From a virus, in IMG/VR virus record IMGVR_UViG_3300020385_000066, positions 1 to 22,516 of that record: 22,516 nucleotides of DNA. One strand, given 5' to 3'. The translations under genes and the position numbers were made by a program. The notes under the pieces are model-generated. The model saw only the letters and a list, made by a program, of their open reading frames with translations. It did not search any database and had not been told where the DNA came from. Positions 4,066 to 19,436 of the stretch are shown in pieces (the first letter of the stretch is position 1; every line of letters begins with the position of its first letter).

Positions 4066-4331
4066 AACACCATATCCCTGATGAGATTAGAAAGAGTTGC
4101 TTTACTTGCTTCGGTAGTTTAAATTCAGCAGAGAGAGCAGTTGTTTTACTTGGTGATGAAGCATATCGTGAGTCACTAGACCTTGACAATGATGATGCTC
4201 CCTGCTGGCAGATTCCAAGTGGAGAACACTCTACTTTTGCTGGATGGAATCCTCAGTGTGTACCCACCATGGATTACATAGTATGGAAATTAAAACGTCG
4301 TGAACAAATTGCGAAAGGAGAAATACATTAA
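4062..4331 (+). CDS. Unknown 89-aa Cys-containing protein between purC and purM
   Basis: A small soluble protein overlapping purC by ATGA and purM by one base (TAATG), so it is coupled on both sides to purine synthesis genes. It has a CxxC pair (SCFTCF, Cys13 and Cys16) and two further cysteines (Cys48, Cys66), which could bind a metal or form disulfides. A Trp/Gly-rich middle (CWQIPSGEHSTFAGWNPQC) precedes a basic helical tail (VWKLKRREQIAKGE). I see no known enzyme motif. The operon position suggests a link to purine metabolism, but this is inference only. Confidence 0.75.
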   Translation: MKHHIPDEIRKSCFTCFGSLNSAERAVVLLGDEAYRESLDLDNDDAPCWQIPSGEHSTFAGWNPQCVPTMDYIVWKLKRREQIAKGEIH

Positions 4332-5251
4332 TGGACTACAAAACTTCTGGTGTTGATATTGAAAAGGGTAGAGCATTTGTAGAGCATCTCAAAATTGTGG
4401 CACCTACCATTGGTGGGTTTAATGGAACGATGGAAATTCCATCAGGATATGAGAAACCTGTCTTAGTATCTGGTGCTGATGGTGTCGGAACTAAAATTAA
4501 TATTTGTAGGATTGCTTTTGATTACTCCACCATTGGCCAAGATTTAGTTGCAATGTGTGTCAATGATGTAATCTGTAGTGGTGCTAAACCATTATATTTT
4601 CTAGACTACGTTTCTACCAAATCAATCGACTCTAATGTTAATGACATTGTGCATGGAGTTGTTGAAGGATGTGAGATTGCTGGTATGGAACTCCTAGGTG
4701 GAGAAACTGCAGAGCATTTCAGGGCACACGATTATGACCTTGCTGGTTTCTGTACTGGTATTGTAGAGAAGAATGATATTGTTGATGGCAGTAACATCAG
4801 GGCAGGTGATGTAGTCATTGGTATTGAGAGCAGTGGACTGCATAGTAATGGATACACTCTTGTCAATGATATGTTGTCAAAACATAAGATTTTTTATAAA
4901 GAGATGCCTGAGTTGCTAACACCAACTACCATCTATGCCCCTCTCGTTCAGAACCTGTTAGATGAGGTGCCTATCTTGGGTATGGCACACATTACGGGCG
5001 GAGGACTGCCTGAGAACCTCCCACGATGCCTTCCAGCAGGTCTTACAGTTGACGTTGATTACTCTGCTTGGGAACGACCAGAACTCTTCACCAAGATTCA
5101 GAAGGCAGGAGACATTGCCGAGGAAGAGATGAGAAACGTATTTAATCTTGGTATTGGGTTTTGTCTAGTTGTTCCACCAGACGTGGTAGCAGACACTCAG
5201 TCTCTTATCAATATGAAGTCTTGGGTGCTTGGAAATGTCCGAGAACAATAA
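4331..5251 (+). CDS. purM: AIR synthetase (phosphoribosylformylglycinamidine cyclo-ligase)
   Basis: PurM closes the imidazole ring, turning FGAM into AIR with ATP. The 306-residue protein has the family hallmarks in order: SGADGVGTKI near residue 47, DLVAMCVNDVICSGAKPL near 70, LGGETAEH near 122, IGIESSGLHSNGYTLV near 165 and HITGGGLPENLPR near 222. It is somewhat shorter than typical bacterial PurM (about 345), with a trimmed C-terminus, but no motif is missing. The ATG overlaps the preceding stop by one base and is preceded by AAAGGAG (4315-4321). It completes the purC-unknown-purM operon. Confidence 0.95.
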   Translation: MDYKTSGVDIEKGRAFVEHLKIVAPTIGGFNGTMEIPSGYEKPVLVSGADGVGTKINICRIAFDYSTIGQDLVAMCVNDVICSGAKPLYFLDYVSTKSIDSNVNDIVHGVVEGCEIAGMELLGGETAEHFRAHDYDLAGFCTGIVEKNDIVDGSNIRAGDVVIGIESSGLHSNGYTLVNDMLSKHKIFYKEMPELLTPTTIYAPLVQNLLDEVPILGMAHITGGGLPENLPRCLPAGLTVDVDYSAWERPELFTKIQKAGDIAEEEMRNVFNLGIGFCLVVPPDVVADTQSLINMKSWVLGNVREQ

Positions 5252-5264
5252 CAATTTTTTGCTA

Positions 5265-5298
5265 TTGTTGATACAGAAGTGTATCACTATGATACACT
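5265..5298 (+). promoter_or_regulatory. Promoter covered by a 9-bp palindrome (candidate operator)
   Basis: TTGTTG (5265-5270), 17 bases, TATGAT (5288-5293) forms a moderate promoter. Over its -10 lies a perfect inverted repeat: AGTGTATCA (5278-5286), spacer CTA, TGATACACT (5290-5298). A third half-site TGATAC (5269-5274) sits exactly 21 bp before the one at 5290. A further TATAAT occurs at 5298-5303. This has the look of a repressor site controlling the tiny genes downstream. There is no T run, so it is not a terminator. Confidence 0.55.
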
Positions 5299-5336
5299 AT
5301 AATCTATATAATTATGTAATCGATTAGGAGGTATTA

Positions 5337-5420
5337 ATGAACTTCACCACAACTGCCTTAGCAGCTGGAACTCTAATGACTATTTTTATCGGAGTTCCCC
5401 TTACTACATTTGTTTATTAG
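5337..5420 (+). CDS. Tiny single-span membrane peptide, 27 aa
   Basis: A 27-codon frame with an excellent ribosome-binding site, AGGAGGT (5326-5332), four bases before the ATG. The peptide is one hydrophobic helix from about residue 7 (ALAAGTLMTIFIGVPLTTFV) with a short polar N-terminus (MNFTTT), and ends at Tyr. It has the size of the smallest photosystem or cytochrome b6f subunits, but I could not match it to any of these. Its likely location is a membrane, perhaps the host thylakoid or inner membrane. It follows a promoter with a palindrome and is paired with a second tiny membrane frame. Confidence 0.6.
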   Translation: MNFTTTALAAGTLMTIFIGVPLTTFVY

Positions 5421-5423
5421 TAT

Positions 5424-5498
5424 ATGGAAATCTTAGTAACCTTAGCCATTTTTGGAGCAGTAATGAGTGGAGCATTTGCACTAACGCCTAAAAAGTAA
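5424..5498 (+). CDS. Tiny single-span membrane peptide, 24 aa
   Basis: Starts three bases after the previous tiny gene. The 24 residues form one hydrophobic span (ILVTLAIFGAVMSGAFAL) with an acidic N-terminus (ME) and a TPKK tail, a pattern that would place the C-terminus on the cytoplasmic side. No ribosome-binding site is evident, so translation may be coupled to the preceding frame. Function unknown; a small membrane subunit, a lysis helper or a host-membrane modifier are all possible. Being so short, it could be spurious, but the composition and tight spacing favour a real gene. Confidence 0.5.
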   Translation: MEILVTLAIFGAVMSGAFALTPKK

Positions 5499-5533
5499 AT
5501 ACTAAATAAAAATGAATATCGTCGTCGCAGACG

Positions 5534-5575
5534 GAGGGGAAACTGGCCAAATCCAGTTGACGCCCCTCTTTTTTA
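5534..5575 (+). terminator. Two-part Rho-independent terminator
   Basis: Outer stem GAGGGG (5534-5539) with CCCCTC (5563-5568) and inner stem AACTGG (5541-5546) with CCAGTT (5553-5558), followed by T5569-5574. It ends the tiny-gene transcript and carries the next promoter's -35 on its descending side. Confidence 0.85.
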
Positions 5576-5585
5576 TTGCTATAAT
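5557..5585 (+). promoter_or_regulatory. Sigma70-like extended -10 promoter
   Basis: TTGACG (5557-5562), 17 bases, TGC plus perfect TATAAT (5580-5585). The -35 is inside the terminator stem. The expected start is near 5592, about 12 bases before the chosen ATG at 5605. It probably drives the 5605-8804 group, including the polymerase. Confidence 0.8.
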
Positions 5586-5604
5586 TAACCTAATGGAGAA
5601 CTGC

Positions 5605-5760
5605 ATGTCCAAGAAATTCAAAAAAACTGACAGTAAAGGTCGTGAAGAACTTTGGGAGTGGGAAGAAACTCCTGAGGTAACTAAAGCAGTTGCCCGTCTT
5701 CATGAAACTATTCGTGAACTTGAAAAGAAAAATGCACCTGATTATGGAGTAGGAAAATGA
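5605..5760 (+). CDS. Small charged hypothetical protein, 51 aa
   Basis: A 51-residue highly charged protein (start MSKKFKKTDSKGREELWEWE, then a helix VTKAVARLHETIRELEKK). I start at 5605, with GGAG (5595-5598) seven bases upstream; an in-frame ATG at 5593 is possible, but lies almost at the expected transcription start. The frame stays open further upstream through the terminator, which is not coding. The stop overlaps the next gene as ATGA. No known domain. First gene of the polymerase operon. Confidence 0.65.
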   Translation: MSKKFKKTDSKGREELWEWEETPEVTKAVARLHETIRELEKKNAPDYGVGK

Positions 5761-6107
5761 GTATTAAACTTTTAATGCTAAAATCTGGCGAAGATATTAT
5801 CGCAGATGTTGACGAAATGTCTGTTGGGGAAGGTGATGAAAAGAGGATTATTGGTTACTATCTCAATAAAGCGTGTGTAGTTAAACTGAGAAACCCCAAT
5901 GCAACGGAAAATAAAAAGGCATATGAGGTATCTCTGTTCCCCTGGATTCCGTTGTCGGCAGAGGATACCGTTCCCATTGTTGCAGATTGGGTAGTAACTA
6001 TTGTGGAACCAGTAGAAAAATTAATTCAAATGTATGTAGAGGATGTTATCAATGGATCGAATAATCAAAGTAGTTCTACTGACGAACAACGAGAAACTGA
6101 TCAGTGA
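5757..6107 (+). CDS. Unknown protein, first of two overlapping paralogues (116 aa)
   Basis: Starts in an ATGA overlap with the previous gene and has GGAG about eight bases upstream. The N-terminal strand pattern (IKLLMLKSGEDIIADVDEM), the middle strand (YYLNKACVVKLRNP) and the segment FPWIPLSAEDTVPI followed by VVTIVEPVEKLIQMYVEDV suggest a compact beta barrel with a C-terminal helix, in the style of small Sm-like folds; this fold guess is inference. The tail (SNNQSSSTDEQRETDQ) is polar. The next gene has the same order of segments, so the two look like a tandem duplication. The overlap is about 56 bases. Function unknown; position directly before gp43 hints at a replication or gene-expression role. 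Confidence 0.75.
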   Translation: MSIKLLMLKSGEDIIADVDEMSVGEGDEKRIIGYYLNKACVVKLRNPNATENKKAYEVSLFPWIPLSAEDTVPIVADWVVTIVEPVEKLIQMYVEDVINGSNNQSSSTDEQRETDQ

Positions 6108-6309
6108 AATAGAAGAGGTTGGTGCTGATATCGGTCAACCTGATTGTAAACTAATCAATCCAATGGAAATATGTGAAGGCAATATGCTTGCTCCTTGGAT
6201 GATGGATCATACAAAACAGGATAACTTTATGATTAATTCTGATAAGATTATTACTCTTGCTGATCCTATGCCTACCCTACTTGAAAAATACCTCGACCTT
6301 ACTAAGTAA
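6052..6309 (+). CDS. Unknown protein, second of two overlapping paralogues (85 aa)
   Basis: Reads in a different frame across the end of the previous gene. I start at 6052, with AGAGG (6038-6042) nine bases upstream; an ATG at 6043 touches that site and is unlikely. The protein repeats the plan of its neighbour: RIIKVVLLTNNEKLISEIEEV, then PDCKLINPMEI, then LAPWMMDHTKQDNFMI, then KIITLADPMPTLLEKYLDL. Its stop overlaps the polymerase start by one base (TAATG), so polymerase translation is probably coupled to it. No enzyme motif seen. Confidence 0.7.
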   Translation: MDRIIKVVLLTNNEKLISEIEEVGADIGQPDCKLINPMEICEGNMLAPWMMDHTKQDNFMINSDKIITLADPMPTLLEKYLDLTK

Positions 6310-8804
6310 TGCGTTTCTACACTAATGTTCAGATGATTGGAAATCAATTCCTTGTAAGAGGAGTTGAGAATGGAAAAAGATATGAACATCGGGATGAGTT
6401 TTTTCCATCTGTATTTGTTAAGACAAAGAAAGATTCTAAGTATAGAACATTAAATGGCACACCAGTAGAAGAGGTAAGACCTGGAACAGTGCGTGACTGT
6501 AGGGATTTTTATAAAAGGTATGATGGTGTTGATGGATTTGAAATCTATGGAAATGATCGATATATCTATCAATATATTTCTGAAAATTATCCAGAAGATG
6601 AAATCAAGTTTGATATCAGTCAAATCAAACTAGTTACTCTTGATATTGAGACTACAGCAGAGCACGGATTTCCTGACATTGAATCCGCCATAGAAGAAAT
6701 TCTTGCAATTACAATTCAGGATTACACTACCAAAAAGATTACTACTTGGGGAGTAAAACCTTTTGCTAACAAGCAAGACAATGTAACTTATTATCATTGT
6801 CATAGTGAACAAGAACTTCTTGGGCACTTCATTAACTATTGGATGGTTGATGTTCCTGATGTGATTACTGGATGGAACATTCAACTGTTTGATATTCCAT
6901 ACATCTGCAAACGACTTAATCGTGTGTTTGGGGAGAAGGTAATGAAGCGACTCTCTAATTGGGGTCTTGTGACAGAAGGAAAGATTTTTATTCAAGGTCG
7001 TGAGCACGTCACTTATGATATTGGTGGATTGACTCAACTTGATTACCTTGATTTGTATAAGAAGTTTACTTACAAGGCACAGGAATCATATCGCCTAGAT
7101 TATATTGCTGAGGTTGAACTTGGTCAGAAGAAACTTGACCACTCTGAGTTTGATACGTTTAAAGACTTCTATACTAAAGGATGGCAGAAGTTTATTGAAT
7201 ATAATATTGTTGACGTAGAATTGGTTGACCGTCTTGAGAGTAAGATGAAACTGATTGAACTTGCATTGACTATGGCATATGAAGCCAAAGTTAATTATGC
7301 TGATGTGTTCTATCAGGTTCGTATGTGGGATAATATTATCTACAATTATCTGAAGAAGAGCGATATTGTAGTTCCTCCTCGTAAGAAAGAAACTAAAAAT
7401 GAGAAGTATGCTGGTGCATATGTAAAAGAACCAATCCCTGGTAAGTATGATTGGGTTGTGAGTTTTGACTTGAATAGTCTGTATCCTCACCTGATTATGC
7501 AATACAATATTTCACCAGAAACTTTGCTGGAAGAAAGGCACCCAACAGCATCAGTAGATAAAATCCTTAATGAAGAAATCAACTTTGAGTTGTATAAGGA
7601 TAATGCAGTCTGTGCAAATGGTGCTATGTTCCGTAAGGATGTCCGTGGGTTCTTGCCAGAACTGATGGAGAAGATGTACGGCGATAGGGTTATCTTTAAA
7701 AAGAAAATGCTTAAGGCAAAGCAAGATTATGAAAAGACACCAACGAAAGCACTTGAGAAGGAAATCGCCCGGTGTAATAATATTCAGATGGCTAAGAAGA
7801 TTTCGCTTAACTCTGCTTATGGTGCCATCGGTAATCAGTATTTTAGGTACTACAAACTGGCCAATGCGGAGGCGATTACGCTTTCTGGTCAAGTTTCTAT
7901 CCGTTGGATTGAGAATAAGATGAACCAATATCTAAATAATCTTTTGCAAACGACGGATACCGATTATGTTATCGCATCAGACACTGATTCGATCTATCTT
8001 AATATGGGACCTATTGTTGATAAATTTTTTGCTAATAAGTCTAGCGACAAAGCAAAGATTGTGGAGTTACTTGATATGGTCTGCGGTGAAAAACTGGAAC
8101 CGTATATCGAGAAGTGTTACCAGGAGTTGGCGGACTATGTCTCGGCATATGACCAAAAAATGAGTATGAAGCGGGAGAATATTGCTGACCGTGGTATTTG
8201 GACTGCAAAGAAACGTTATATTCTAAATGTATGGAACAGTGAAGGTGTTGCTTATGCAGAACCTAAACTAAAAGTGATGGGTATTGAGTCGGTCAAATCA
8301 TCTACTCCGGCACCTTGTAGGAAGATGCTGAAAGAAGCATTTAATATTTTGATGACAGGAACAGAGGATGATGTTATTAATTACATTGATAGGAGTCGTA
8401 AGGAGTTTAATTCTCTGCCCCCAGAGCAAATCTCTTTCCCTCGTTCGGTATCTGATGTAGTAAAATATAAATCTTCATCAAACATTTATTCAAAAGGAAC
8501 TCCTATTCATGCTAGAGGAGCACTTCTCTTTAATCATTACATTAAGGAGAATAAATTAGATAACAAGTATTCTTTGATTAAGAATGGAGAGAAGATTAAG
8601 TTCTGCTATCTAAAGAAACCAAACATCATCCACGAAAATGTTATCTCTTTTATCCAGGAGTTTCCAAAAGAACTTGGACTGAATCAATATGTTGACTATG
8701 ATCTTCAATTTGAGAAATCATTCCTAGAACCACTGAAAGCAATCCTAGATTCTATTGGTTGGAAAGTGGAGAAGACTAATACCTTAGAGTCATTCTTCTC
8801 TTAA
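6309..8804 (+). CDS. 43: Family B DNA polymerase (T4 gp43-like)
   Basis: The phage replicative polymerase with 3'-5' proofreading, 831 residues (T4 gp43 is 898). Exonuclease motifs: LDIETT at 111-116 (Asp112, Glu114), GWNIQLFDIP at 188-197 (Asp195) and YNIVD at 298-302. Polymerase motifs: A, FDLNSLYP at 386-393 (Asp387); B, KKISLNSAYG at 496-505; C, SDTDS at 557-561 (Asp558, Asp560). All catalytic residues are present and the frame is continuous, with no intein, intron or split as in some T4-like phages. The start overlaps the previous stop and has no strong ribosome-binding site, so it probably relies on coupling. The polymerase works with gp44/gp62 and the gp45 clamp. Confidence 0.97.
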   Translation: MRFYTNVQMIGNQFLVRGVENGKRYEHRDEFFPSVFVKTKKDSKYRTLNGTPVEEVRPGTVRDCRDFYKRYDGVDGFEIYGNDRYIYQYISENYPEDEIKFDISQIKLVTLDIETTAEHGFPDIESAIEEILAITIQDYTTKKITTWGVKPFANKQDNVTYYHCHSEQELLGHFINYWMVDVPDVITGWNIQLFDIPYICKRLNRVFGEKVMKRLSNWGLVTEGKIFIQGREHVTYDIGGLTQLDYLDLYKKFTYKAQESYRLDYIAEVELGQKKLDHSEFDTFKDFYTKGWQKFIEYNIVDVELVDRLESKMKLIELALTMAYEAKVNYADVFYQVRMWDNIIYNYLKKSDIVVPPRKKETKNEKYAGAYVKEPIPGKYDWVVSFDLNSLYPHLIMQYNISPETLLEERHPTASVDKILNEEINFELYKDNAVCANGAMFRKDVRGFLPELMEKMYGDRVIFKKKMLKAKQDYEKTPTKALEKEIARCNNIQMAKKISLNSAYGAIGNQYFRYYKLANAEAITLSGQVSIRWIENKMNQYLNNLLQTTDTDYVIASDTDSIYLNMGPIVDKFFANKSSDKAKIVELLDMVCGEKLEPYIEKCYQELADYVSAYDQKMSMKRENIADRGIWTAKKRYILNVWNSEGVAYAEPKLKVMGIESVKSSTPAPCRKMLKEAFNILMTGTEDDVINYIDRSRKEFNSLPPEQISFPRSVSDVVKYKSSSNIYSKGTPIHARGALLFNHYIKENKLDNKYSLIKNGEKIKFCYLKKPNIIHENVISFIQEFPKELGLNQYVDYDLQFEKSFLEPLKAILDSIGWKVEKTNTLESFFS

Positions 8805-8815
8805 TTATCATATCC

Positions 8816-8866
8816 AGAGCATTGACTTTCAGACCTAACTAGAGTATACTGAATGTCAAATGCTCT
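8816..8866 (+). repeat. Inverted repeat flanking the uvsX promoter
   Basis: AGAGCATTGAC (8816-8826) is complementary to GTCAAATGCTCT (8855-8866) apart from one extra A, with 28 bases between. The left arm contains the -35, the right arm lies in the short uvsX leader five bases before the ATG. In read-through RNA from gp43 it could fold just upstream of uvsX; RNA started at the promoter would not contain the left arm. Confidence 0.6.
8822..8850 (+). promoter_or_regulatory. Sigma70-like promoter for uvsX
   Basis: TTGACT (8822-8827), exactly 17 bases, TATACT (8845-8850). The expected start near 8857 gives a leader of about 15 bases without a ribosome-binding site. Confidence 0.8.
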
Positions 8867-8871
8867 AGACT

Positions 8872-9879
8872 ATGGACTTCCTGAAAGAAATTGTAAAAGA
8901 GATTGGAGATGAATATACACAACTTGCCGCAGACATCGATGAAACCGAAAGATATGTTGATACGGGTTCGTACATCTTTAACGGACTCGTTTCAGGTAGC
9001 ATATTTGGTGGTGTATCTGGGAATAAGATTACTGCCATTGCTGGGGAGTCTAGCACTGGAAAAACTTTCTTCAGCTTGGCAGTCGTCAAGAACTTCCTTG
9101 ATTCTAATCCTGATGGGTATTGCTTATATTTTGACACTGAGGCCGCTGTTAATAAGTCTCTACTCGCAGGTCGTGGGGTAAACCTTGACCGCACAGTAGT
9201 GGTCAATGTGGTCACTGTAGAGGAGTTCCGTAGCAAGGCACTTAAAGCAGTGGATATGTATCTCAAAACCCCTGAGGAGGATCGTAAACCCTGTATGTTT
9301 GTGCTAGACTCTTTAGGGATGCTCTCAACTGAGAAAGAGATTAGAGATGCCCTTGACGAAAAACAAGTCAGGGATATGACCAAATCTCAACTCATCAAGG
9401 GTGCTTTCCGTATGCTGACTCTGAAACTGGGTCAAGCAAACATTCCTATGATTGTCACTAATCACACTTATGATGTCATTGGTTCCTATGTCCCTATGAA
9501 AGAAATGGGTGGTGGTTCTGGTCTTAAGTATGCTGCTTCTACAATCATTTATCTCAGCAAAAAGAAGGAAAAGGATGGAACAGAAGTCATTGGTAATCTT
9601 ATCAAGGCTAAGACTCACAAGTCGCGTTTAAGTAAGGAGAACAAAGATGTTACAGTGCGTCTTTATTACGACAAGCGTGGTCTTGATCGATATTACGGTC
9701 TTCTTGAATTGGGTGAGATTGGAGGACTTTGGAAGAACGTTGCTGGTCGATATGAAATGAATGGCAAGAAAGTATATGCTAAGGCAATACTTAAGGAACC
9801 AGAAGTATACTTCACTGAAGAAGTGATGGAACAGTTAGACCAAATCGCACAGAAGGAGTTTAGTTATGGAGAAAGTTGA
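8872..9879 (+). CDS. uvsX: UvsX RecA-like recombinase
   Basis: A 335-residue strand-exchange protein of the RecA family, used by T4-like phages for repair and recombination-driven replication. Walker A is GESSTGKT (58-65), the Walker B strand is CMFVLDSLGM (Asp146), and VTNHTYD plus GGGSGLKYAAS match the DNA-binding loop region of T4 UvsX. The ATG at 8872 has no ribosome-binding site; nearby upstream ATGs are out of frame or run into a stop, so this start stands. The end overlaps gp41 by 14 bases. It is shorter than T4 UvsX (about 390), missing mainly the C-terminal tail. Confidence 0.95.
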   Translation: MDFLKEIVKEIGDEYTQLAADIDETERYVDTGSYIFNGLVSGSIFGGVSGNKITAIAGESSTGKTFFSLAVVKNFLDSNPDGYCLYFDTEAAVNKSLLAGRGVNLDRTVVVNVVTVEEFRSKALKAVDMYLKTPEEDRKPCMFVLDSLGMLSTEKEIRDALDEKQVRDMTKSQLIKGAFRMLTLKLGQANIPMIVTNHTYDVIGSYVPMKEMGGGSGLKYAASTIIYLSKKKEKDGTEVIGNLIKAKTHKSRLSKENKDVTVRLYYDKRGLDRYYGLLELGEIGGLWKNVAGRYEMNGKKVYAKAILKEPEVYFTEEVMEQLDQIAQKEFSYGES

Positions 9880-11248
9880 GTTTCTAATCCTTAGAAACCT
9901 TCTACACAATGAAGAATATCTCCGAAAAACAATACCATTTATCAAACCTGAATACTTTGAGGATAATCATCAAAAGATTGTCTTTGAAGAGATTCAAAAC
10001 TTTGTTGAAAAGTATAATAAAGTCGCAACCAAAGAGATTCTCTGTATTGAGGTAGAAAATCGTAATGACATTAATGACTCCTCTTTTAAGGAAGTAGTTG
10101 GTTTGATTACTTCTCTGGAAGAAGAGGTGTCAGAGTTTAATTGGTTAGTTGATACTACAGAGAAGTGGTGTCGGGATCGCGCTATATACTTGGCGCTAAT
10201 GGAATCCATTGCTTTAGCAGACGGTAATAACAACGATGAGAAGAAAGGTAGAGATGCTATTCCTACCATCTTATCTGATGCTTTAGCAGTGAGTTTTGAT
10301 ACTCATATTGGTCATGATTATCTTGGAGACTATGAACAACGTTATGAAACCTATCACAGAAAGGAGGACAAAGTTGAATTCGACCTCGAATACTTCAACA
10401 AAATTACAAAAGGTGGCTTACCTAACAAGACTCTTAACATCGCGCTTGCTGGTACAGGTGTCGGCAAGTCTTTATTCATGTGCCATGTTGCTAGCTCCGT
10501 GTTGCTCCAAGGGAGAAACGTTCTCTATATTACAATGGAGATGGCAGAAGAAAAAATTGCTGAGCGAATTGATGCCAACCTCCTCAATGTCCCGATTCAA
10601 GAAATTGGTGACCTTCCAAAAGTAATGTTTGAGGATAAGGTGACAAAACTTGCACAAAAAACGCAAGGCACTCTTATAATTAAAGAATATCCTACAGCAT
10701 CAGCACACAGTGGACACTTTAAATCACTTCTTAACGAACTTGCACTTAAGAAGTCATTTAGACCTGATATTATTTTTATTGATTACCTTAATATATGTGC
10801 TTCCTCTAGGTATCGCGGAAACAGCACTGTCAATTCATATTCTTATATTAAAGCAATTGCAGAAGAGTTGCGAGGGTTGGCTGTTGAAGCAAACGTCCCT
10901 ATCGTTTCTGCCACGCAGACCACTCGTTCTGGTTTTGGTAGCTCTGACGTTGAGCTTACTGACACTTCTGAGTCCTTTGGTCTCCCTGCTACTGCTGATC
11001 TTATGTTTGCCCTTATTTCTACAGATGACCTCGAAGGGCTTGGACAAATTATGGTGAAGCAATTAAAGAACCGATACAATGACCCAACAATCTTTAAGAG
11101 ATTTGTGGTGGGTATTGACCGTGCTAAGATGCGTCTGTATGATTGCGAGCAGTCAGCACAGGATGATATTCTTGACAGTGGGCAGGAAGAGCAGTATAAT
11201 AATGAGGAAACAAAACCAAAAAAATCATTTGAGGGATTTAAGTTTTGA
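9866..11248 (+). CDS. 41: Replicative DNA helicase (T4 gp41-like, DnaB family)
   Basis: A 460-residue 5'-3' helicase that unwinds the replication fork and partners with gp61 primase. The N-terminal helical domain (to about residue 150) is followed by the RecA-like ATPase: Walker A AGTGVGKS at 195-202, TMEMAEEKIAERI just after, Walker B DIIFIDYLNI with Asp306, and a VSATQTTRSG motif, typical of DnaB helicases. The start has AAGGAG (9853-9858) seven bases upstream inside uvsX. The stop overlaps the next gene's TTG start (TTGA). The size is close to T4 gp41 (475). Confidence 0.95.
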   Translation: MEKVEFLILRNLLHNEEYLRKTIPFIKPEYFEDNHQKIVFEEIQNFVEKYNKVATKEILCIEVENRNDINDSSFKEVVGLITSLEEEVSEFNWLVDTTEKWCRDRAIYLALMESIALADGNNNDEKKGRDAIPTILSDALAVSFDTHIGHDYLGDYEQRYETYHRKEDKVEFDLEYFNKITKGGLPNKTLNIALAGTGVGKSLFMCHVASSVLLQGRNVLYITMEMAEEKIAERIDANLLNVPIQEIGDLPKVMFEDKVTKLAQKTQGTLIIKEYPTASAHSGHFKSLLNELALKKSFRPDIIFIDYLNICASSRYRGNSTVNSYSYIKAIAEELRGLAVEANVPIVSATQTTRSGFGSSDVELTDTSESFGLPATADLMFALISTDDLEGLGQIMVKQLKNRYNDPTIFKRFVVGIDRAKMRLYDCEQSAQDDILDSGQEEQYNNEETKPKKSFEGFKF

Positions 11249-11538
11249 ACGGTTACTATTCTGTATTTAATCCCAGAGGTCAAAAGATTGCCGATTGCGG
11301 TTCTGAAAAAGATGCAGTTACTCTTCTTGGTATGAGGAACTGTAGATGGGAAGGACACTACTATTCGTTCATTCCATTACCTGGTAATATTATTGATATT
11401 TCTTCTGGCAAACAACTTCCAACCAAAGACATCGTTGTAAATATGGACGGTGGTGTTGGTGGTAGTTGGTACGAAGTAATAACTAAAGAATTCCCTCAAA
11501 ATTGCCAAGAACCATTTATCCCCGATTTTCATGACTAA
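11245..11538 (+). CDS. Hypothetical protein, 97 aa, TTG start
   Basis: Begins at TTG 11245, overlapping the gp41 stop, with GAGGGA (11231-11236) eight bases upstream; there is no ATG near this position. The N-terminus (NGYYSVFNPRGQKIADCG) is a beta-hairpin-like segment, followed by KDAVTLLGMRN and an aromatic-rich middle (EGHYYSFIPLPG). The tail is acidic and ends in FHD. It overlaps mazG by eight bases. I do not recognise a domain. Position in the gp41-mazG chain suggests co-expression with replication genes. Confidence 0.7.
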   Translation: MNGYYSVFNPRGQKIADCGSEKDAVTLLGMRNCRWEGHYYSFIPLPGNIIDISSGKQLPTKDIVVNMDGGVGGSWYEVITKEFPQNCQEPFIPDFHD

Positions 11539-11938
11539 AGTTGATACTGAAAAATACCTTGATTTTGTACATGGGGTAACCAGTCCTCCTAGCCTTGACT
11601 ATCCTATTCTTGCAACACGTCTAACTGAACTAGAAGTTAGTGGAACTAATGTTACTCAACTCCTGACTGCTGCCCTTGGACTATCTGCAGAAGCAGGTGA
11701 GTTCACTGAGGTTGTAAAGAAGATTATCTTCCAAGGAAAACCTTATAGCGAAGAGAATGTCTTTCACATGAAACGTGAACTGGGTGATATCTGTTGGTAT
11801 TTGGCACAGGCATGTATGGCACTTGATACTACTTTTGATGAAGTGATTGAGATGAACGTTGAGAAACTCAAGGCACGTTATCCTGGCGGTGAGTTTGATG
11901 TTCATAAGTCTGAAAACCGTGTGGAGGGAGACCTGTGA
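11531..11938 (+). CDS. mazG: MazG-type nucleotide pyrophosphohydrolase
   Basis: A 135-residue all-alpha MazG-family enzyme. The metal-binding signature is complete: GLSAEAGEFTEVVKK (Glu57 and Glu60 forming ExxE) and ELGDICWYLAQ (Glu83 and Asp86 forming ExxD). MazG splits nucleoside triphosphates to monophosphates and pyrophosphate. In cyanophages it was long suggested to lower (p)ppGpp, but the characterised cyanophage enzyme prefers dGTP and dCTP, which fits recycling of host-derived nucleotides. The start lies within the previous gene and has no ribosome-binding site, so coupling is likely; it overlaps the next gene by GTGA. Confidence 0.93.
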   Translation: MTKVDTEKYLDFVHGVTSPPSLDYPILATRLTELEVSGTNVTQLLTAALGLSAEAGEFTEVVKKIIFQGKPYSEENVFHMKRELGDICWYLAQACMALDTTFDEVIEMNVEKLKARYPGGEFDVHKSENRVEGDL

Positions 11939-12120
11939 TTAAACTTGAACTTGAAGTGAAGAATGCTGCTGCAATTCGTCACGTATTATATAAAGAGCAA
12001 GAGCGTTATACTTATGATCCTGCCTGCGTTCCAGAAAGGATTACTAATATTCGTGAAACTATTCAAACATTAGATAACCAAATTGAGGAGGAACTAAAGA
12101 ATGAAACTACTAACACTTGA
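11935..12120 (+). CDS. Small hypothetical protein, 61 aa, GTG start
   Basis: Starts at GTG 11935, overlapping the mazG stop, with GGAGGGA (11923-11929) five bases before it. The protein is a strand (IKLELEVKNAAAIRHVLYKEQ) followed by a charged helix (ERITNIRETIQTLDNQIEEELKN) that could form a short coiled coil. No known domain. It overlaps the following gene by 20 bases. Confidence 0.65.
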   Translation: MIKLELEVKNAAAIRHVLYKEQERYTYDPACVPERITNIRETIQTLDNQIEEELKNETTNT

Positions 12121-12340
12121 TGATTATCAAAGAGCAGGAGAAACATTTTGGCCTAAGTATTGGTATATTGCAAAAGAACTTGGTGAAAGTGCTAAGACAG
12201 AAGATGTTCTTAAATGTATGGAAGCAATCGGCGGTGTTGCATTAAAGTTAGCACTAGAAGAAAAGGGAGCAGGTCCATTCGGATTTAATGATAAAGATAA
12301 AGATAAAGAAACCCCTATTGCTGAAAACGAGGAGAGTTAA
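12101..12340 (+). CDS. Small hypothetical protein, 79 aa
   Basis: A good ribosome-binding site, GAGGAGGAAC (12087-12096), lies just upstream, inside the preceding gene. The sequence has a helical middle (VLKCMEAIGGVALKLALEEKG) and a repetitive acidic tail (NDKDKDKETPIAENEES). No known domain. Its stop overlaps the next start by one base, keeping the chain of coupled genes. Confidence 0.65.
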   Translation: MKLLTLDDYQRAGETFWPKYWYIAKELGESAKTEDVLKCMEAIGGVALKLALEEKGAGPFGFNDKDKDKETPIAENEES

Positions 12341-12597
12341 TGAGCGACCAAAATAGTAATAGACCAAATCTTGAAACCGATAATATAGAGTGGATTGATG
12401 ATGCATTCTATGTTTATAAAACAAGATTTGGTTTGTATACAAGTATCCGAAAAGATACTAAAGAAAACTTCTTAACTGGAGCAACTTATGATGGTGTGTT
12501 TGAGATGTCCCGTTGGCATCTTATGTGTGAACAAGAAGGAACACTTGAACAATATACCAGAGTTATTGGAGATGCTTTTGTTGGAGGCAAACTTTGA
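12340..12597 (+). CDS. Hypothetical protein, 85 aa
   Basis: Starts at ATG 12340 with GAGGAG (12330-12335) four bases upstream and a one-base overlap with the previous stop. The protein has aromatic strands (EWIDDAFYVYKTRFGLYTSI), then a segment around FEMSRWHLMCEQEGTLEQ and a glycine-containing end (VIGDAFVGGKL). I recall similar small proteins as conserved unknowns in cyanophages, but have no function to offer. The stop overlaps the TTG start of the next small gene. Confidence 0.65.
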   Translation: MSDQNSNRPNLETDNIEWIDDAFYVYKTRFGLYTSIRKDTKENFLTGATYDGVFEMSRWHLMCEQEGTLEQYTRVIGDAFVGGKL

Positions 12598-12845: not shown

Positions 12846-14318
12846 ATGGCAAAGCCACCAAAACCAAAAGCTACTTTATCTTCTGTTGAAGATTTTCTGT
12901 ACGAACTTGGTCCGGTAAGAGGAGATATAATTACATTTAAGGGAATAAAATTTCAAGTCACTAAATTTGAAAGAAAAAGACCTCCAACCTTAGAGATAAA
13001 CTTTGAATATCCAGGAAGTAAATCTTCTCTAAACAGTTTTAAGTCAGCTATATTTAAAGCGGTGAAAGGACATTTTGGTTCAGTAGATGTTCAATCAAAA
13101 GACTTTGGTTCTTATAAAGCATTATACATCCTTGCTGATAAAGCATTTCTTTACCTTGAGCCTAAGGACACTTCTGGAGGCGCTAAAGGAACTGTTCCTC
13201 CACAAATTCATGAAAAAGGCACAGCAGAAGTATTTACTAGAGCTCTGTCAAGTAGAAACCCATATATGTCAGAAGATGATCTGATTAAAGATACTAAAAT
13301 GCAAACTGAGTTGAAAAAAATTTTTGGATCTAAGTATGGGCATAGATTACCAGATTGGTTACATAGTTTTTATGAACAGCAGTCAGCGGCACTAAAGGAA
13401 TATAGTGGTCCTCAGTGGGAGGAATTTGTTTATGGTAAAGGTTCTTTTGTTGATTTTTTTGAAGACCATATGGACAAGTTGCATAGAGACTTGGAACCAG
13501 AACTTAAAGTTGGAAGGTATGAAAAGTGGAATCCATCTGATATATGGGCTGTAAAAAGAGGTAAGACGAAAGAGATAAAAGATAAATTGATAAAGGAGAT
13601 TGGAACACAAACGGTCTTACTAAAAGTCAATGCCATATTGATTAATCTGATGGAAAGTAATGATCTTGTTGGAATATCTCTTAAGAAAATAGACGCAAAA
13701 TCTTCCGGTAATATTAAATTATATAATGTTGATACATCGGATAAGTTGAAAGCCCTTAAATCCTATGCTCATATAGAACTTTATGATATGAATGATATTA
13801 GTTTTGAGCCTGACAATATTTTAATTTTAAAATCTGTTACCACGTATATTAGAATTGGACCTGGGGGAAAATATTTTATTGATATCACTAGGTCTGGCAA
13901 GAATCTTTCCTTTAATAGTCAAATCAAAGGAACTGCTGCACAGGGTGGACAAGCACCGATTGATTTAGTAGTTAAGATGTTGAAAGGAAATACCTTCGAT
14001 AAGAGTAATGCCACGTATCCTCAAGACGCTGATTCGTTTATGAAAGATGTGAATACGTATAAAAAAATGTATAAGGTAGTTTCTAAATATGCATCAAGTC
14101 GCTCTCAGAAAATAGATATAAATGATTGGATAGAAGGAGTGAAAACTCTTTATAAGAAAGATTCAAGAAATGCAATAGTTACTTTGATGCAGTTAAGTTT
14201 TTGGAATGATGCACTTAAGAACCATGCAAATAACCCTGAGTTTTGGACAGATCTCTTATATTATGGTATGAAAGTTACCTCTAAAGGTATGTTTGCTCCA
14301 CATGCAAAGATATCTTAA
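12846..14318 (+). CDS. Large late protein, possible PD-(D/E)xK-like core; paralogue of next gene
   Basis: A 490-residue protein, first of a virion-type block. An N-terminal part (to about residue 115) is beta-rich (DIITFKGIKFQVTKFERKRP). A helical stretch follows (PDWLHSFYEQQSAALKEY, about 169-186), then WNPSDIWAVKRGKTKEI (228-244) and DLVGISLKKI (273-282). The same order, P-[DE]-W...ALK-[KE]-Y, WNPxDI, LVGxSLKxI, occurs in the next gene, so the two are paralogues. Asp232 with Ser278-Leu-Lys280 resembles the D...(D/E)xK pattern of restriction-nuclease folds with Ser in place of the acid; this is a hypothesis. Both proteins end with a similar W..LYYG.K segment. Ribosome-binding site weak. Likely a virion or DNA-handling protein. 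Confidence 0.7.
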   Translation: MAKPPKPKATLSSVEDFLYELGPVRGDIITFKGIKFQVTKFERKRPPTLEINFEYPGSKSSLNSFKSAIFKAVKGHFGSVDVQSKDFGSYKALYILADKAFLYLEPKDTSGGAKGTVPPQIHEKGTAEVFTRALSSRNPYMSEDDLIKDTKMQTELKKIFGSKYGHRLPDWLHSFYEQQSAALKEYSGPQWEEFVYGKGSFVDFFEDHMDKLHRDLEPELKVGRYEKWNPSDIWAVKRGKTKEIKDKLIKEIGTQTVLLKVNAILINLMESNDLVGISLKKIDAKSSGNIKLYNVDTSDKLKALKSYAHIELYDMNDISFEPDNILILKSVTTYIRIGPGGKYFIDITRSGKNLSFNSQIKGTAAQGGQAPIDLVVKMLKGNTFDKSNATYPQDADSFMKDVNTYKKMYKVVSKYASSRSQKIDINDWIEGVKTLYKKDSRNAIVTLMQLSFWNDALKNHANNPEFWTDLLYYGMKVTSKGMFAPHAKIS

Positions 14319-14337: not shown

Positions 14338-15510
14338 ATGGCAACCAACGCTAAAGAAACTGCCAAACAAGAAAATGGTTCTAAAGTTTTCTTTGAGCAT
14401 GTTATTGAAAAGGGTAGAGAACCAACAGATAAAATGATGCTGGATGTATATGATGGGTATAGTCCTGAGTGGAGAGATACTTATCGCAAACAAACAGATG
14501 CTTTAAAAAAATATCTAGGATCTAATAGGGGATATGAATATTCCAGAGATTCTGGAGTTATGCCTTATATTGAAAATATTGCAAAAGTTAAATGTGGAGT
14601 ATCTGTTAAGGATCGTTGGAATCCTATGGATATAGTTTTGGTAAAGAAAAATAAGAAAAAAATTGTTGAAGGAACAATAAAAGAGATAACAAATATTGAT
14701 GGAATGACAAAAGACGCAAAATTGAATTTGCTTAATTCTTACATGAGGGAAAGTTTAAAGGAAAAGATTCTTGTGGGAGTTTCATTAAAGGCAATTTCAA
14801 AAACAAAAAAAACTGCTAACGCAGAAGTTGCTAATGCCGGTGGTAAGTCTGTTCCTACTAAAGTTGATATGGTTAAGGGGTCGTTAAAATGTACTTTAAC
14901 CCTTGGTAAAAAGAAACAATTTCTTTTTGATACTGGTGAACTTGGGTTTGATATGGAAACTGCTAAAGGTGGAAAAATACATGGACAGTCTAGAAACTTT
15001 CAATATTCTAAAGATAGAAATTTAGTACAAACTGACTTGACACCAAAAGGAAAAGATGCTGGTGCTAAACTTGGAAAAGTTTCTAGTGTTGCATTAGATT
15101 CTTTCCTTGGTGGTATGGGATTGAATCGTCCTACATCAGCAGCAAAAGATAAAAATATCCCTCCCGTGGGTAAGTGGACTGATATGGAAAAAAGATATTG
15201 GATTGATTTATATAATAAACTAAATTCTTCAGGAATGGTTGATTTTGGTGAAGTTGCTGTGTATGAGAATAATAAAAAAGTTGCTGATGGTTTTGAGGCA
15301 GTTTTAGATTATGCAATCATATATGAGATGAGGAAAGCAGATAGAAGTTCTGCCGGAAGATTTTCTTCTAAGTTAGTTGCTATGGAGTGGGCAAATATCT
15401 GGGTCACTATATCAAAGAAGGGTAAATCAAAAGAATGGTGTACTGCTCTTTACTATGGTGCTAAAAAAGAATTTGGTTCTTCTAATGGACCATTTTTAAA
15501 AATTTACTAA
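14338..15510 (+). CDS. Late protein with the same core as the preceding gene
   Basis: A 390-residue protein that lacks its neighbour's N-terminal domain but shares the core: PEWRDTYRKQTDALKKY (43-59), RWNPMDIVLVKKNKKKIVEG (93-112) and ILVGVSLKAIS (144-154). After this come a beta-rich stretch (GSLKCTLTLGKKKQFLFDTG) and a C-terminal part ending in EWCTALYYGAKK and GPFLKIY, matching the neighbour's end. Asp98 and Lys151 would be the candidate nuclease-like residues. There is no ribosome-binding site before ATG 14338. The conserved pair in a late block suggests packaged or DNA-interacting proteins, perhaps forming a heteromer; not known. Confidence 0.7.
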   Translation: MATNAKETAKQENGSKVFFEHVIEKGREPTDKMMLDVYDGYSPEWRDTYRKQTDALKKYLGSNRGYEYSRDSGVMPYIENIAKVKCGVSVKDRWNPMDIVLVKKNKKKIVEGTIKEITNIDGMTKDAKLNLLNSYMRESLKEKILVGVSLKAISKTKKTANAEVANAGGKSVPTKVDMVKGSLKCTLTLGKKKQFLFDTGELGFDMETAKGGKIHGQSRNFQYSKDRNLVQTDLTPKGKDAGAKLGKVSSVALDSFLGGMGLNRPTSAAKDKNIPPVGKWTDMEKRYWIDLYNKLNSSGMVDFGEVAVYENNKKVADGFEAVLDYAIIYEMRKADRSSAGRFSSKLVAMEWANIWVTISKKGKSKEWCTALYYGAKKEFGSSNGPFLKIY

Positions 15511-15536
15511 ATATAGTATAAGAACTAACAATATAA

Positions 15537-16763
15537 ATGAAAAGTTTCTTTCAATTTTTAGGTGAGGCAAGATCAGAAGCATCACTTAAAGCACAGAAGT
15601 TAAACCTAAAGAGTGATGGGCACGGTGGTTGGTTAGACTCCCGTGGTAAGTTTGTTGCAACTACCGAAGACGGTAAGTTAAAATTTGTTGATAAGAAGAA
15701 AGTAAATGATAAAGAAGAAGAAGGTGGTGGTAGAAAACCAGCACAGCAACCTGTTACTGCCAAACCTGTTGCTAAACCAGAAGAGCAACCTAAAGCAAAG
15801 GCAAAGACTAGTGAACCCGAAGATGGAGATAGTGAAGAGTCAACCGGCACTCTAACTGTCGTATTTGGTAGATTTAATCCTCCTACTGTTGGGCACGAAA
15901 AACTTTTAAAGTCTGCTGATCGTATGGCAGAGGGTGATGACTTTAAAGTATATCCTTCTAGGACACAGGATCCAAAGAAGAATCCACTTGATGCTGATAT
16001 GAAAGTATCTTATATGAAGAAGATGTTCTCTGACTATAAAGAGAACATTGTCAATGATCCTAATATGAGATCTATTTTTGATGTATTAGTTGCTGCAAAT
16101 GAAGATGGATATGACAACATTAATATTGTTGTAGGTGCTGATCGTCAGGCAGAGTTTGAGAACCTGGCACAGAAATATAATGGTGAGTTATATGAATTTA
16201 ATCAAATACGTGTAATTTCTGCTGGTGCTAGAGATGCAGAAGCAGAAGGTGTTGAAGGTATGTCTGCTTCTAAGATGAGAAAGGCAGTAGCAGAAGATGA
16301 CTTTGCCACATTCCGTAGAGGCACACCTAAGACATTAGATGATGGCGATACACAAGCACTATTTGATGCTGTCCGTTCTGGTATGGGTATTAAGAAGAAG
16401 AAAGATGTTGCAGAGATGTGGCAGATTGCTCCTAAGTTTGATCACAAAGGTTTACGTGAGCAGTATGTTAACGATAAGATTTACAGAATTGGTGATATTG
16501 TAGAGAACCTGAATACTGGTTTGATTGGTAGAATTATTCGCAGAGGAACTAATCATCTAATCTGTCTCACTAAGGAAGATTATATGTTTAAGTCTTGGAT
16601 TAGAGATGTGATGGAAGCAGTTGTAAACTACTCAGGACCATCAGGTGTTCCTTCCGACCAGAGACTTATAGGTACAGATTCTCATAGAGAATATGCTCAG
16701 AGAATGACAGGGACAACTGCTATACGAAATTTCATAAATAAGTATAAGAAAAAGAAGTCGTAG
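15537..16763 (+). CDS. Nucleotidyltransferase with internal-head-protein-like N-terminus
   Basis: A 408-residue multidomain protein. Residues 1-11 (MKSFFQFLGEA) closely resemble the capsid-targeting sequence of T4 internal proteins (MKTYQEFIAEA), which the prohead protease cuts after the Glu. Residues about 18-54 hold a small Gly/Trp module (DGHGGWLDSRGKFVATTEDG), then a Pro/Lys/Glu linker to about 104. Residues 106-285 form an HxGH-type nucleotidyltransferase of the NMN/pantetheine adenylyltransferase kind: VVFGRFNPPTVGH (108-120), VVGADRQ (198-204) and GMSASKMRKA (241-250, matching the ISSTxxR motif). A C-terminal beta-barrel-like part follows (NTGLIGRIIRRGTNHLICLT). The substrate is not readable; NAD synthesis is one candidate. 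No ribosome-binding site. Confidence 0.8.
   Translation: MKSFFQFLGEARSEASLKAQKLNLKSDGHGGWLDSRGKFVATTEDGKLKFVDKKKVNDKEEEGGGRKPAQQPVTAKPVAKPEEQPKAKAKTSEPEDGDSEESTGTLTVVFGRFNPPTVGHEKLLKSADRMAEGDDFKVYPSRTQDPKKNPLDADMKVSYMKKMFSDYKENIVNDPNMRSIFDVLVAANEDGYDNINIVVGADRQAEFENLAQKYNGELYEFNQIRVISAGARDAEAEGVEGMSASKMRKAVAEDDFATFRRGTPKTLDDGDTQALFDAVRSGMGIKKKKDVAEMWQIAPKFDHKGLREQYVNDKIYRIGDIVENLNTGLIGRIIRRGTNHLICLTKEDYMFKSWIRDVMEAVVNYSGPSGVPSDQRLIGTDSHREYAQRMTGTTAIRNFINKYKKKKS
16733..16740 (+). promoter_or_regulatory. Possible late promoter (CATAAATA)
   Basis: CATAAATA within the last codons of the nucleotidyltransferase gene, 30 bases before the next ATG; right spacing for a late promoter but only one imperfect motif supports it. 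Confidence 0.35.
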
Positions 16764-16770
16764 TATCCCA

Positions 16771-18156
16771 ATGTCTGAAATTCATTTGAGTGATCTCTCG
16801 AAAATTTATACCAAACAGATTGCAGAGAAAAAAGACGATACGTATCTTGAACCTGATATGAAAAAGCGTCAAGAAAATAATGAGAAGGCCCGCAAGGAAC
16901 TTGCTAAGGGTCCTCAAATGAAAAACCCAGCTTTTAAGGAAGCACTTGACCCTGTAGGTCAGGAAGATGCTGATGTAGATAACGACGGTGATGTTGATAA
17001 GTCTGACAAGTATCTTAGTAAGCGTCGTAAGGCAATCGCCAAAGCGATGAAGAAGAAAATGTCAGAAGACTATAAAGTGCTTCCTAAAGAGAAGATGGCA
17101 CGTCAGTCTAATAAAGCATATGATAAAGAGCAGAAAGCAGTCTCTGCTGGTGATGAAAAAGAAACAAACAAGCAGATGCAGCGCAGAATTGCAATGCAGA
17201 ATCCTGCTGGTCGTAAGGCACAACTTGCAAAAGTTAAGACTGAGTCTTTTTCTAACTGGAGAACTGACCTGATTGAAGTTGCTCCTACTACGGACGATGA
17301 AGAATCAAAAATTAAAGAAAAGAAGGTCAATAATAAAATTGTACTCAACCCCAAACTTGGTGAAGAAGTTGTATCTGAACTAGGTGGAACTATGATTGAG
17401 ATGGTTGAGTATGATGAGTTTGATGGAATGGTTGAGGGTGTATACTTTGAACTTCAAGAAGAAGGATATGTTGAAGGTGATATTGAGGAAGCACTTGAGT
17501 GGGTATTGACCGAGGCAAAAGTTACTTATGGTTCTGATACTGAGTCACCTAAGCAACAGATGATGAAGAAAGCAAAGGGTCGCTTGAGATTCCTTGGCAG
17601 AAAGGTTGGTGGAAAGATGTCATTTGCTAAGAATAAAGCAGGTATGGCATCTGCTCAGGCACAAGTTGCTGCTTACAATAAGGCAAGAGAAGCAAAACAA
17701 TCTGCTTCTGACACTGCTAGAAGAGTTAAAAAGTCTGCTATTGATACTTCTAAGAATGCAAAGAAAGGTTTAAAGAGTAAGATTAAGAGTGCTGCAGAAA
17801 AAGTTGCTGCTCGTATGAGTGAGGAAACTGAATCTGACCCAAAAGAAAAGCAAATGCTTTCTAAGAAGAGGCAGATGATGATGAAGCAACAAATGCTTGA
17901 CAAGCAAAGACTACAAGCACAACAACAGGGCAAGTTGCCTTCTGGTCATAGAACTGAACAGAAAGAAGAAATGACTGCCTTTGAGAAAGTAAAAGCAGAC
18001 ATTATCAAAAAACACGGAAAGAATGCTATTGTAGGTGCTCCTAAAAATAAGGTGGATCACGCTAAAATCAATTCTGCTAAAGCAAGTGCCAGTAAACCGA
18101 ATAAGCGTGAGCAAGAGTCCAGTGGTCGTTACACTGGAGGATACGCAGGAGATTAA
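16771..18156 (+). CDS. Lysine-rich low-complexity late protein with EF-hand-like loop
   Basis: A 461-residue, very Lys/Ala/Met/Gln-rich protein with little hydrophobic core. Residues 66-79 (DADVDNDGDVDKSD) match a calcium-binding EF-hand/dockerin-type loop (DxDxDG...D). Residues 158-170 (ESFSNWRTDLIEV) form an aromatic-acidic motif. A folded-looking acidic stretch at about 195-250 (ELGGTMIEMVEYDEFDGMVEG) precedes long basic helices (about 262-345 and 360-386, MLSKKRQMMMKQQM) that could contact DNA. The end is Gly/Ser-rich. Composition and position fit an internal head or core protein that packs with DNA, but this is inference. No ribosome-binding site before ATG 16771. Confidence 0.65.
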   Translation: MSEIHLSDLSKIYTKQIAEKKDDTYLEPDMKKRQENNEKARKELAKGPQMKNPAFKEALDPVGQEDADVDNDGDVDKSDKYLSKRRKAIAKAMKKKMSEDYKVLPKEKMARQSNKAYDKEQKAVSAGDEKETNKQMQRRIAMQNPAGRKAQLAKVKTESFSNWRTDLIEVAPTTDDEESKIKEKKVNNKIVLNPKLGEEVVSELGGTMIEMVEYDEFDGMVEGVYFELQEEGYVEGDIEEALEWVLTEAKVTYGSDTESPKQQMMKKAKGRLRFLGRKVGGKMSFAKNKAGMASAQAQVAAYNKAREAKQSASDTARRVKKSAIDTSKNAKKGLKSKIKSAAEKVAARMSEETESDPKEKQMLSKKRQMMMKQQMLDKQRLQAQQQGKLPSGHRTEQKEEMTAFEKVKADIIKKHGKNAIVGAPKNKVDHAKINSAKASASKPNKREQESSGRYTGGYAGD

Positions 18157-18839: not shown

Positions 18840-19436
18840 ATGGCACTCTGGGGTATTACTGATGCTGACGAAGCAAAACCAAAGTGGTTGACCACTGAAG
18901 AAAAAAAGCAGGTCTTCGCAAACGCAAGTGGGTGGGTTGTTGAAGGTGGTTCTATTATGACTGGTAGCGACAATACTGCTGCTCAACCAGAAGTTTTATG
19001 CTGCGTTAAAAGTCTCTCTACTGGTATTGGCGCTGCTGATATTACCGAAGTTGAGATGGTTACCACAACCGCTGACAAGTCTGAAGGATTCACAATCTCT
19101 GTCAGAGTCAGATATAACGAACCTGTTAATGTTGTCACATCAGGTGGCACACCAACACTCGCAGTTACAAATAGTAACGCTGGATCTGGATCAGGAAGAG
19201 GACCACATTCACTATCATATGCATCAGGAACTGGAACTAATGAGTTAATCTTCTCCTTGGCAATTGCAGCTGCTAATGCTGCTACTAACGCCGATGACGT
19301 TCTTTCTGTCGCAGCTCAGAGTATTGCATTAAATAGTGGAACTATTAAGGATGCTACTGGAACTGCCTCTGATGTTGCTGTTGCAATTTCAGGTGCTCAA
19401 GGAACTGCAGCTGGCACTGTAACAGTAACTGCATAA
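18840..19436 (+). CDS. Late virion-type protein with Ig-like (SwmB-type) domain
   Basis: A 198-residue protein. The N-terminus (MALWGITDADEAKPKWLTTE) is of the kind seen at the start of cyanophage structural proteins. Residues about 83-185 look like one Ig-like repeat of the type found in bacterial surface proteins such as Synechococcus SwmB: a VRYNEPVNV strand, GTPTL, YASGTGTNELIF, DDVLSVAA and LNSGTIKDATG in the usual order. The composition is rich in Ala, Thr, Gly and Ser with two adjacent cysteines (Cys54, Cys55). A perfect late promoter and GAAAGGA site suggest it is abundant. It may be a capsid or tail decoration, comparable in role to T4 Hoc, but no homology to Hoc is claimed. Confidence 0.72.
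   Translation: MALWGITDADEAKPKWLTTEEKKQVFANASGWVVEGGSIMTGSDNTAAQPEVLCCVKSLSTGIGAADITEVEMVTTTADKSEGFTISVRVRYNEPVNVVTSGGTPTLAVTNSNAGSGSGRGPHSLSYASGTGTNELIFSLAIAAANAATNADDVLSVAAQSIALNSGTIKDATGTASDVAVAISGAQGTAAGTVTVTA

Follow-up and report, generated by a model that had tools for sequence, protein, structure and literature searches.

A predicted T4-style capsid-targeting leader on a cyanophage nucleotidyltransferase whose orthologues occur in virions

The DNA analysed here (the window, a virus record of 22.5 kb taken at its full length) carries the genes gp43, uvsX, gp41, mazG, a nucleotidyltransferase (NTase) cluster and gp61, in an order that is of the T4-like cyanophage type and is matched in S-SM2. 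The NTase ORF is real and its boundaries are correct as given in Table 1. Comparison with PHROGs assigns it to family 395, 'cytidyltransferase' (E = 1e-105), and a tblastn search found homologues in 556 phage records, mostly of cyanophages. The protein begins with the short sequence MKSFFQFLGEA, which is followed by a small folded Gly/Trp module, a disordered linker, a HIGH-type core and a KOW/SH3-like domain. This last domain and the basic tail that accompanies it were absent from the first-pass annotation of the locus. The module, the flexible linker and the catalytic motifs that it did describe are all borne out: the module is predicted to be compact and folded (confidence near 90), disorder is predicted in the region following it, and both FNPPTVGH (residues 113-120) and SASKMR (residues 243-248) are present and nearly invariant in the NTase alignment.

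Table 1. Positions in the window of the NTase gene, its parts and the neighbouring genes of the cluster
Feature	Coordinates	Strand	Remarks
Upstream gene, PHROG 1462	12846..14318	+	CATAAATA 23 nt before start; in the place of an S-SCSM1 gene labelled virion protein
Upstream gene, PHROG 1462	14338..15510	+	AATAAATA 21 nt before start; in the place of an S-SCSM1 gene labelled virion protein
Late-promoter-like box CTAAATA	15507..15513	+	30 nt before the NTase ATG
Virion-associated nucleotidyltransferase (NTase) ORF, 408 aa	15537..16763	+	PHROG 395; T4-GC 190 family
Capsid-targeting-like sequence MKSFFQFLGEA, residues 1-11	15537..15569	+	
Predicted prohead-protease cut, E10/A11	15566/15567	+	Inferred
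Gly/Trp module, residues 14-50	15576..15686	+	One helix and three strands
Disordered linker, residues 51-104	15687..15848	+	Prediction puts disorder at 55-101
Nucleotidyltransferase core, residues 105-282	15849..16382	+	Contains FNPPTVGH and SASKMR
KOW/SH3-like C-terminal domain, residues 301-360	16437..16616	+	Also given as residues 321-360
Downstream basic protein	16771..18156	+	(L/I)xE sites LIE-V and LTE-A
PHROG 11617 protein, related to S-SM1_195	18840..19436	+	TATAAATA 44 nt before start

The T4 internal proteins have only a short N-terminal leader in common, through which they enter the scaffolding core (PMC3012670). A protease removes this leader, whose length in T4 is 10-20 residues (PMC5694885). 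We compared the start of the NTase with the leader of T4 ipII and ipIII (MKTYQEFIAEA), as given in the T4 genome record. Five of the 11 residues are identical (M1, K2, F7, E10 and A11), four more are conservative replacements (S/T at position 3, F/Y at 4, Q/E at 6 and L/I at 8), the spacing is equal and both sequences have (L/I)xE-A at positions 8-11 (here and below, a hyphen marks the predicted cut). The nearly residue-by-residue match proposed in the first-pass annotation is therefore upheld, as is the conservation that it suggested checking in a homologue alignment. Among 68 homologue N-termini, retrieved by peptides from other parts of the NTase and hence not chosen for the leader, F7 and E10 are present in 68 of 68, K2 in 67 and A11 in 62; position 9 is free. 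This is the fair count, since in alignment A1 the invariance of M1, F7 and E10 arises partly by construction (22 of its 37 rows were retrieved with the motif).

The leader behaves as a separate unit. In an NTase clade retrieved with the motif (L135, L091 and L125) it is intact although the module and the linker are absent. It is missing from the orthologues of S-PM2, Syn1 and S-H9-2, so packaging is not universal; in S-PM2 the core is preceded by an unrelated N-terminal stretch. In close relatives, F7 and E10 are universal, and the loss of the motif that the first-pass annotation had named as counter-evidence occurs only in distant ones, including S-PM2. The members of the clade without module and linker (L135, 2505-3809; L091, 11230-12507; L125, 8262-9539, minus strand) have the leader joined straight to the core.

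Carriage of this family in virions is known from the literature. In a study of purified S-SM1 virions by Sullivan et al. (2010), the proteins identified included 'a putative citidylyltransferase (T4-GC190)', which was noted as undetected in S-PM2 (PMC3037559). Mass spectrometry by Wang et al. (2022) showed the S-SCSM1 NTase in virions (PMC9602691), Rong et al. (2022) recorded two peptides for S-SZBM1_140 and four for its neighbour S-SZBM1_139 (PMC9146016), and S-CREM2 ORF154 was found in the virion with three (PMC10665884). By our comparison, the S-SCSM1 enzyme is 70% identical to that of the window. The packaging proposed in the first-pass annotation was thus right, although not new, and the new part is the signal. 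All four of the orthologues detected in virions carry the leader (S-SM1, MKKFSAFLNEA; S-SCSM1, MKSFLQFLKEA; S-CREM2, MKNFSSFLTEA; and S-SZBM1, MRFRQFIIEA, which is one residue shorter) while the undetected S-PM2 orthologue does not. The intact leader peptide of the S-CREM2 enzyme is NFSSFLTEADEK. In the literature searched, which included few subscription papers, the leader as a targeting signal, its spread over unrelated proteins, the shared cassette or module and the equivalence of the protease site appear to be unreported.

The virion studies worked with purified particles. The authors of those on S-SCSM1 and S-CREM2 propose entry into the host, yet warn that carry-over of an abundant soluble protein is possible (PMC9602691, PMC10665884). 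In this case the NTase would be an abundant late enzyme of the cytoplasm that adheres to particles or is purified along with them, and its motif would serve for something else (for example, binding to a replication or assembly partner). The low peptide counts (two in S-SZBM1 and three in S-CREM2) and the position of the gene between the replication genes gp41 and gp61 would both fit. Against co-purification stand the T4 internal proteins, whose leader the motif matches at equal spacing, and the motif-less S-PM2 orthologue, which was not found in virions. Two other types of evidence also bear on it: the distribution of the motif within individual phages and the promoters of the cluster.

We defined a strict motif, M[KR]x[FYLW]xxF[LIMFV]x[ED]. 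In S-CREM2 it occurs in four of 219 proteins, compared with 0.012 expected among 219 shuffled N-termini. These are a SAM hydrolase (MKDFDSFLEEF), an APH-like kinase (MKRFDAFLTEE), gp13 (MKDLHSFLTEQ) and the NTase. All four belong to the set of 52 virion proteins identified by mass spectrometry (Fisher p = 0.003), a p-value that is indicative since the expression was written after the S-CREM2 N-termini had been inspected and was not blind, the NTase is itself among the four and gp13 is represented by one peptide. This confinement to proteins found in the virion argues against co-purification. Near forms begin gp136 (MQTFSMFFSED) and lie at residues 19-26 of gp12 (FASFMAEA), both also virion proteins, and the tail, baseplate and shell proteins of S-CREM2 have no leader at their start. 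S-SZBM1 provides no independent enrichment: of its strict-type matches, 140 is a virion protein and 191 was undetected, as was 192, a further protein with a motif of this type. In S-CRM01 a run of genes encodes the leader, namely a kinase (MISFDQFLSEK), gp129 (MKKLDQFLTEK) and the gp127 NTase (MKLFNQFFKEA), with LDSFIKEA further inside gp128. The S-CREM2 paper (PMC10665884) cites this kinase as a protein of the virion.

The late promoters of T4 and S-PM2 have been described as TATAAATA / NATAAATA (PMC2984593). A late-promoter-like box precedes the NTase gene in 33 of 33 relatives, compared with 27% of the other ORFs in the same loci; [AC]TAAATA lies 26-32 nt before the start in 32 of them and 12 nt before it in the remaining one. 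In the window, NATAAATA stands 21-44 nt before the genes starting at 12846, 14338, 16771 and 18840, and before none of those starting from 3346 to 12594. Only this position before the cluster genes is informative, because ATAAATA is not enriched over the window as a whole (9 occurrences, 8.0 expected). In S-CREM2, TATAAATA precedes gp154, gp6 and the gp15 operon.

The neighbouring genes also have counterparts among virion proteins. In S-SCSM1 the cluster in the same place is labelled as virion proteins (gp089, gp282, the NTase, gp280, gp279 and gp277, that is, five besides the NTase). The downstream basic protein corresponds in position to S-SCSM1 gp280 and to S-SZBM1_139, and the PHROG 11617 protein to S-SZBM1_136, also found in the virion. 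From the late-type promoters and the S-SCSM1 labels, the NTase cluster is probably a late virion cluster amid replication genes. Both observations tell against co-purification, which, taken with the evidence above, we regard as quite improbable. Judging from its (L/I)xE sites, the downstream basic protein may possibly be cut into several pieces by the prohead protease. The two upstream genes are tandem members of PHROG 1462. In the S-SM2 record the tag 'similar to Synechococcus phage S-SM1 protein' is attached to structural genes and to the NTase; we have not counted this as evidence.

The first-pass annotation had noted that LGE-A fits the (I/L)xE rule of the prohead protease. LGE-A is indeed present at this point and a comparison with the sites of the major head protein gp23 agrees, the cut itself being predicted. 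Among the S-SM2 ORFs taken from their first ATG, the strict motif occurs in three only, SSM2_065, SSM2_108 and the NTase. SSM2_108 (91376-91804 of S-SM2), which adjoins the terminase genes, reads MKTLKQFLKE-TPTNSVGNGGYTSAGGQTVAGYD, and S-SM2 gp23 reads MIAE-QPTNAVGNGGYTSSGGQTVAGFD. From the glutamate onwards the two are 83% identical over 24 residues (E = 2e-13). SSM2_108 is therefore a near copy of the predicted mature N-terminus of gp23 after the motif glutamate, which places E10 of the leader at the predicted gp23 cut. (I/L)xE is found at the matching place in gp23 of S-CREM2 (GLLTE-AP), S-SZBM1 (ILTE-AA) and T4 (FGSFLTE-A), the last with the F..FLxE form of the leader. A gp21-type protease (Peptidase_S77) is encoded by S-SM2, S-CREM2, S-SZBM1 and T4, and by five of six IMG/VR contigs longer than 70 kb, counted among motif-carrying contigs alone. 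None was found in the 22.5 kb window record, which is a genome fragment. On the gp23 comparison, the NTase would be cleaved between E10 and A11.

SSM2_108 is not the only protein of its kind. Two others (L197, 3696-4238, and L129, 339-1253) likewise have a leader and then a segment that copies or resembles the N-terminal arm of mature gp23. Such proteins may form a lining inside the shell.

A motif that targets the prohead core does not necessarily mean injection. The NTase could act in head assembly itself (for example, in the core, in DNA condensation or in ligand binding), and T4 core proteins have (I/L)xE sites too. The KOW/SH3-like domain and basic tail are candidates for binding to capsid or DNA, and cyanophages have been reported to be without gp67 and gp68, so that other core proteins may be needed. 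The catalytic motifs, however, are among the most conserved residues of the NTase, orthologues that have lost the tag retain the core, and other tagged proteins resemble enzymes. An assembly role is consequently unlikely, if less so than co-purification, and we retain the reading of the NTase as an enzyme carried as head cargo.

The nature of the enzyme was approached through its core. The Pfam family CTP_transf_like is matched with 22.5 bits (cut-off 21), and an HxGH-like and a second motif are present. When the fold of residues 105-282 was compared with the PDB, the top 19 entries were all NaMN/NMN adenylyltransferases (best E 1.7e-4; TM-score by target about 0.6), with pantetheine-phosphate enzymes ranking below them. 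The NTase of the L135, L091 and L125 clade has a C-terminal Zeta-toxin/AAA_33 P-loop kinase domain, an arrangement reminiscent of NadR. From the modelled fold, we lean slightly towards NMN/NaMN adenylyltransferase as the likeliest activity. None of the NCBIfam NMNAT models reached its cut-off (best about 15-18 bits, against 112-341), and a sequence profile search of the PDB gave weak matches only (best E 0.056; the MJ0541 NMNAT at E 0.16). A cytidylyl- or other adenylyltransferase acting on a different substrate, such as a sugar, lipid or pantetheine phosphate, would be consistent with these unreached cut-offs, with the PHROG label 'cytidyltransferase' and with a Pfam match to the general CTP_transf_like family alone. 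The ranking of the fold matches and the NadR-like kinase fusion in the related clade make such a substrate the less probable choice, though still a serious one.

The Gly/Trp module is not restricted to the NTase, nor is it present in all NTase clades. Kinases and nuclease-like proteins from other cyanophages have it too: it recurs twice in the S-CREM2 kinase, twice in the S-N03 kinase, in S-CREM2 gp12 and in a large ACG-2014f protein, and it can be made out in S-CRM01 gp128 and S-B68 QBP06017. The S-B68 (L224, 3133-4884) and S-CRM01 (L223, 4702-5253) proteins match S-CREM2 gp12 over its first 150 residues only, which looks like an exchange of effectors behind a shared front end. A scan of viral_contigs confirmed no relatives of the S-B68 N-terminal cassette. 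S-CREM2 gp12 (OR473000, 7704-10313, L082, minus strand) has been reported in virions and bears the annotation CRISPR-Cas9. A Pfam search at E 0.01 gave it no family, and it contains the near-form leader, the module and an HNH-like stretch (DHVIGRSSG), so its identity as Cas9 is doubtful.

To examine the spread of the leader, a DNA pattern for MKxFxxF[LF]xEA was searched over IMG/VR and gave at least 120 stretches. Among the matches listed, almost every one opens a reading frame, and in only two cases does the frame close within the contig after fewer than 60 residues. Proteins with at least 60 residues form at least 27 clusters. The NTase family has at least 77 members; the other clusters (at least 26), which include DUF6267 and DUF5661 proteins, are dissimilar behind the leader. 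This recurrence on many unrelated proteins suggests a general selection of proteins that such viruses inject. On balance we consider it somewhat more probable than otherwise that T4-like phages of marine and fresh water use one N-terminal code, MKxFxxF[LI]xE-A, sometimes followed by a swappable Gly/Trp module, for a whole set of head-packaged and injected effectors. These would comprise the NTase, kinases, SAM hydrolase, nuclease-like proteins, DUF6267 ligase-like proteins, DUF5661 proteins and about 20 families of unknown type. If so, the injected proteins of uncultured phages could be listed from sequence alone. DUF6267-type proteins with a KWDGAP/KxDG ligase-like motif adjoin the NTase gene in S-SM1 (189), S-SZBM1 (141) and S-PM2, and others (L107, L175 and L180) bear the leader themselves.

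Taken together, the results lead us to propose, with a probability of roughly 0.78, that the NTase is a late-expressed head cargo. Its first ten residues would serve as a capsid-targeting sequence of the T4 type and dock the protein on the prohead core; there a gp21-type protease would cut after LGE10 and leave Ala11 as the new N-terminus. The enzyme would then be sealed in the head with the DNA and would most likely enter the cell with it. There, as infection begins, the adenylyl/cytidylyltransferase core would most likely convert NMN to NAD or NaMN to NaAD. The targeting motif has sequence support in its spacing, its conservation, its enrichment among virion proteins and the comparison with the gp23 site. 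The connection of the motif to virion proteins, the equivalent site in gp23 and the late promoter are likewise supported by sequence. Cleavage, the interior position, injection and the substrate are the steps that we infer from these. Proteomes of cyanophage virions have repeatedly given an NMNAT-like enzyme, kinases and a SAM hydrolase without explanation, and their authors left open the question of contaminants. A T4-type leader on these proteins provides both a mechanism and a simple test. Since the leader can be searched for in metagenomes, it becomes possible to predict, without phage culture, which proteins are delivered into abundant marine photosynthesisers at the very onset of infection.

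Three known systems can be compared with that proposed here. The closest is the NMNAT-like/cytidylyltransferase of cyanophage virions (T4-GC 190; S-SCSM1 ORF91, S-SZBM1_140 and S-CREM2 ORF154), a direct orthologue family with the same leader; the S-SM2 and S-SCSM1 orthologues also have the same gene neighbourhood as the window. NadM, NadD and NadR, the NMN/NaMN adenylyltransferases, share the Rossmann-type HIGH nucleotidyltransferase fold and are the nearest structural matches. The NTase differs from them in falling below the curated NMNAT cut-offs, in its SASKMR second motif and in its phage-specific N- and C-terminal domains. Finally, T4 IPI, IPII and IPIII with their capsid-targeting sequence (CTS) resemble the NTase in having a 10-residue N-terminal leader with equal spacing and residue classes and an (L/I)xE-A end. 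As with the cyanophage proteins, the cargo is diverse, has the leader alone in common and is present in virions (on the cyanophage side, as orthologues). Unlike the T4 proteins, the cyanophage cargo is a conserved enzyme found in most cyanophage genomes, its packaging position and cut are predicted, and its leader often precedes an additional folded Gly/Trp module.
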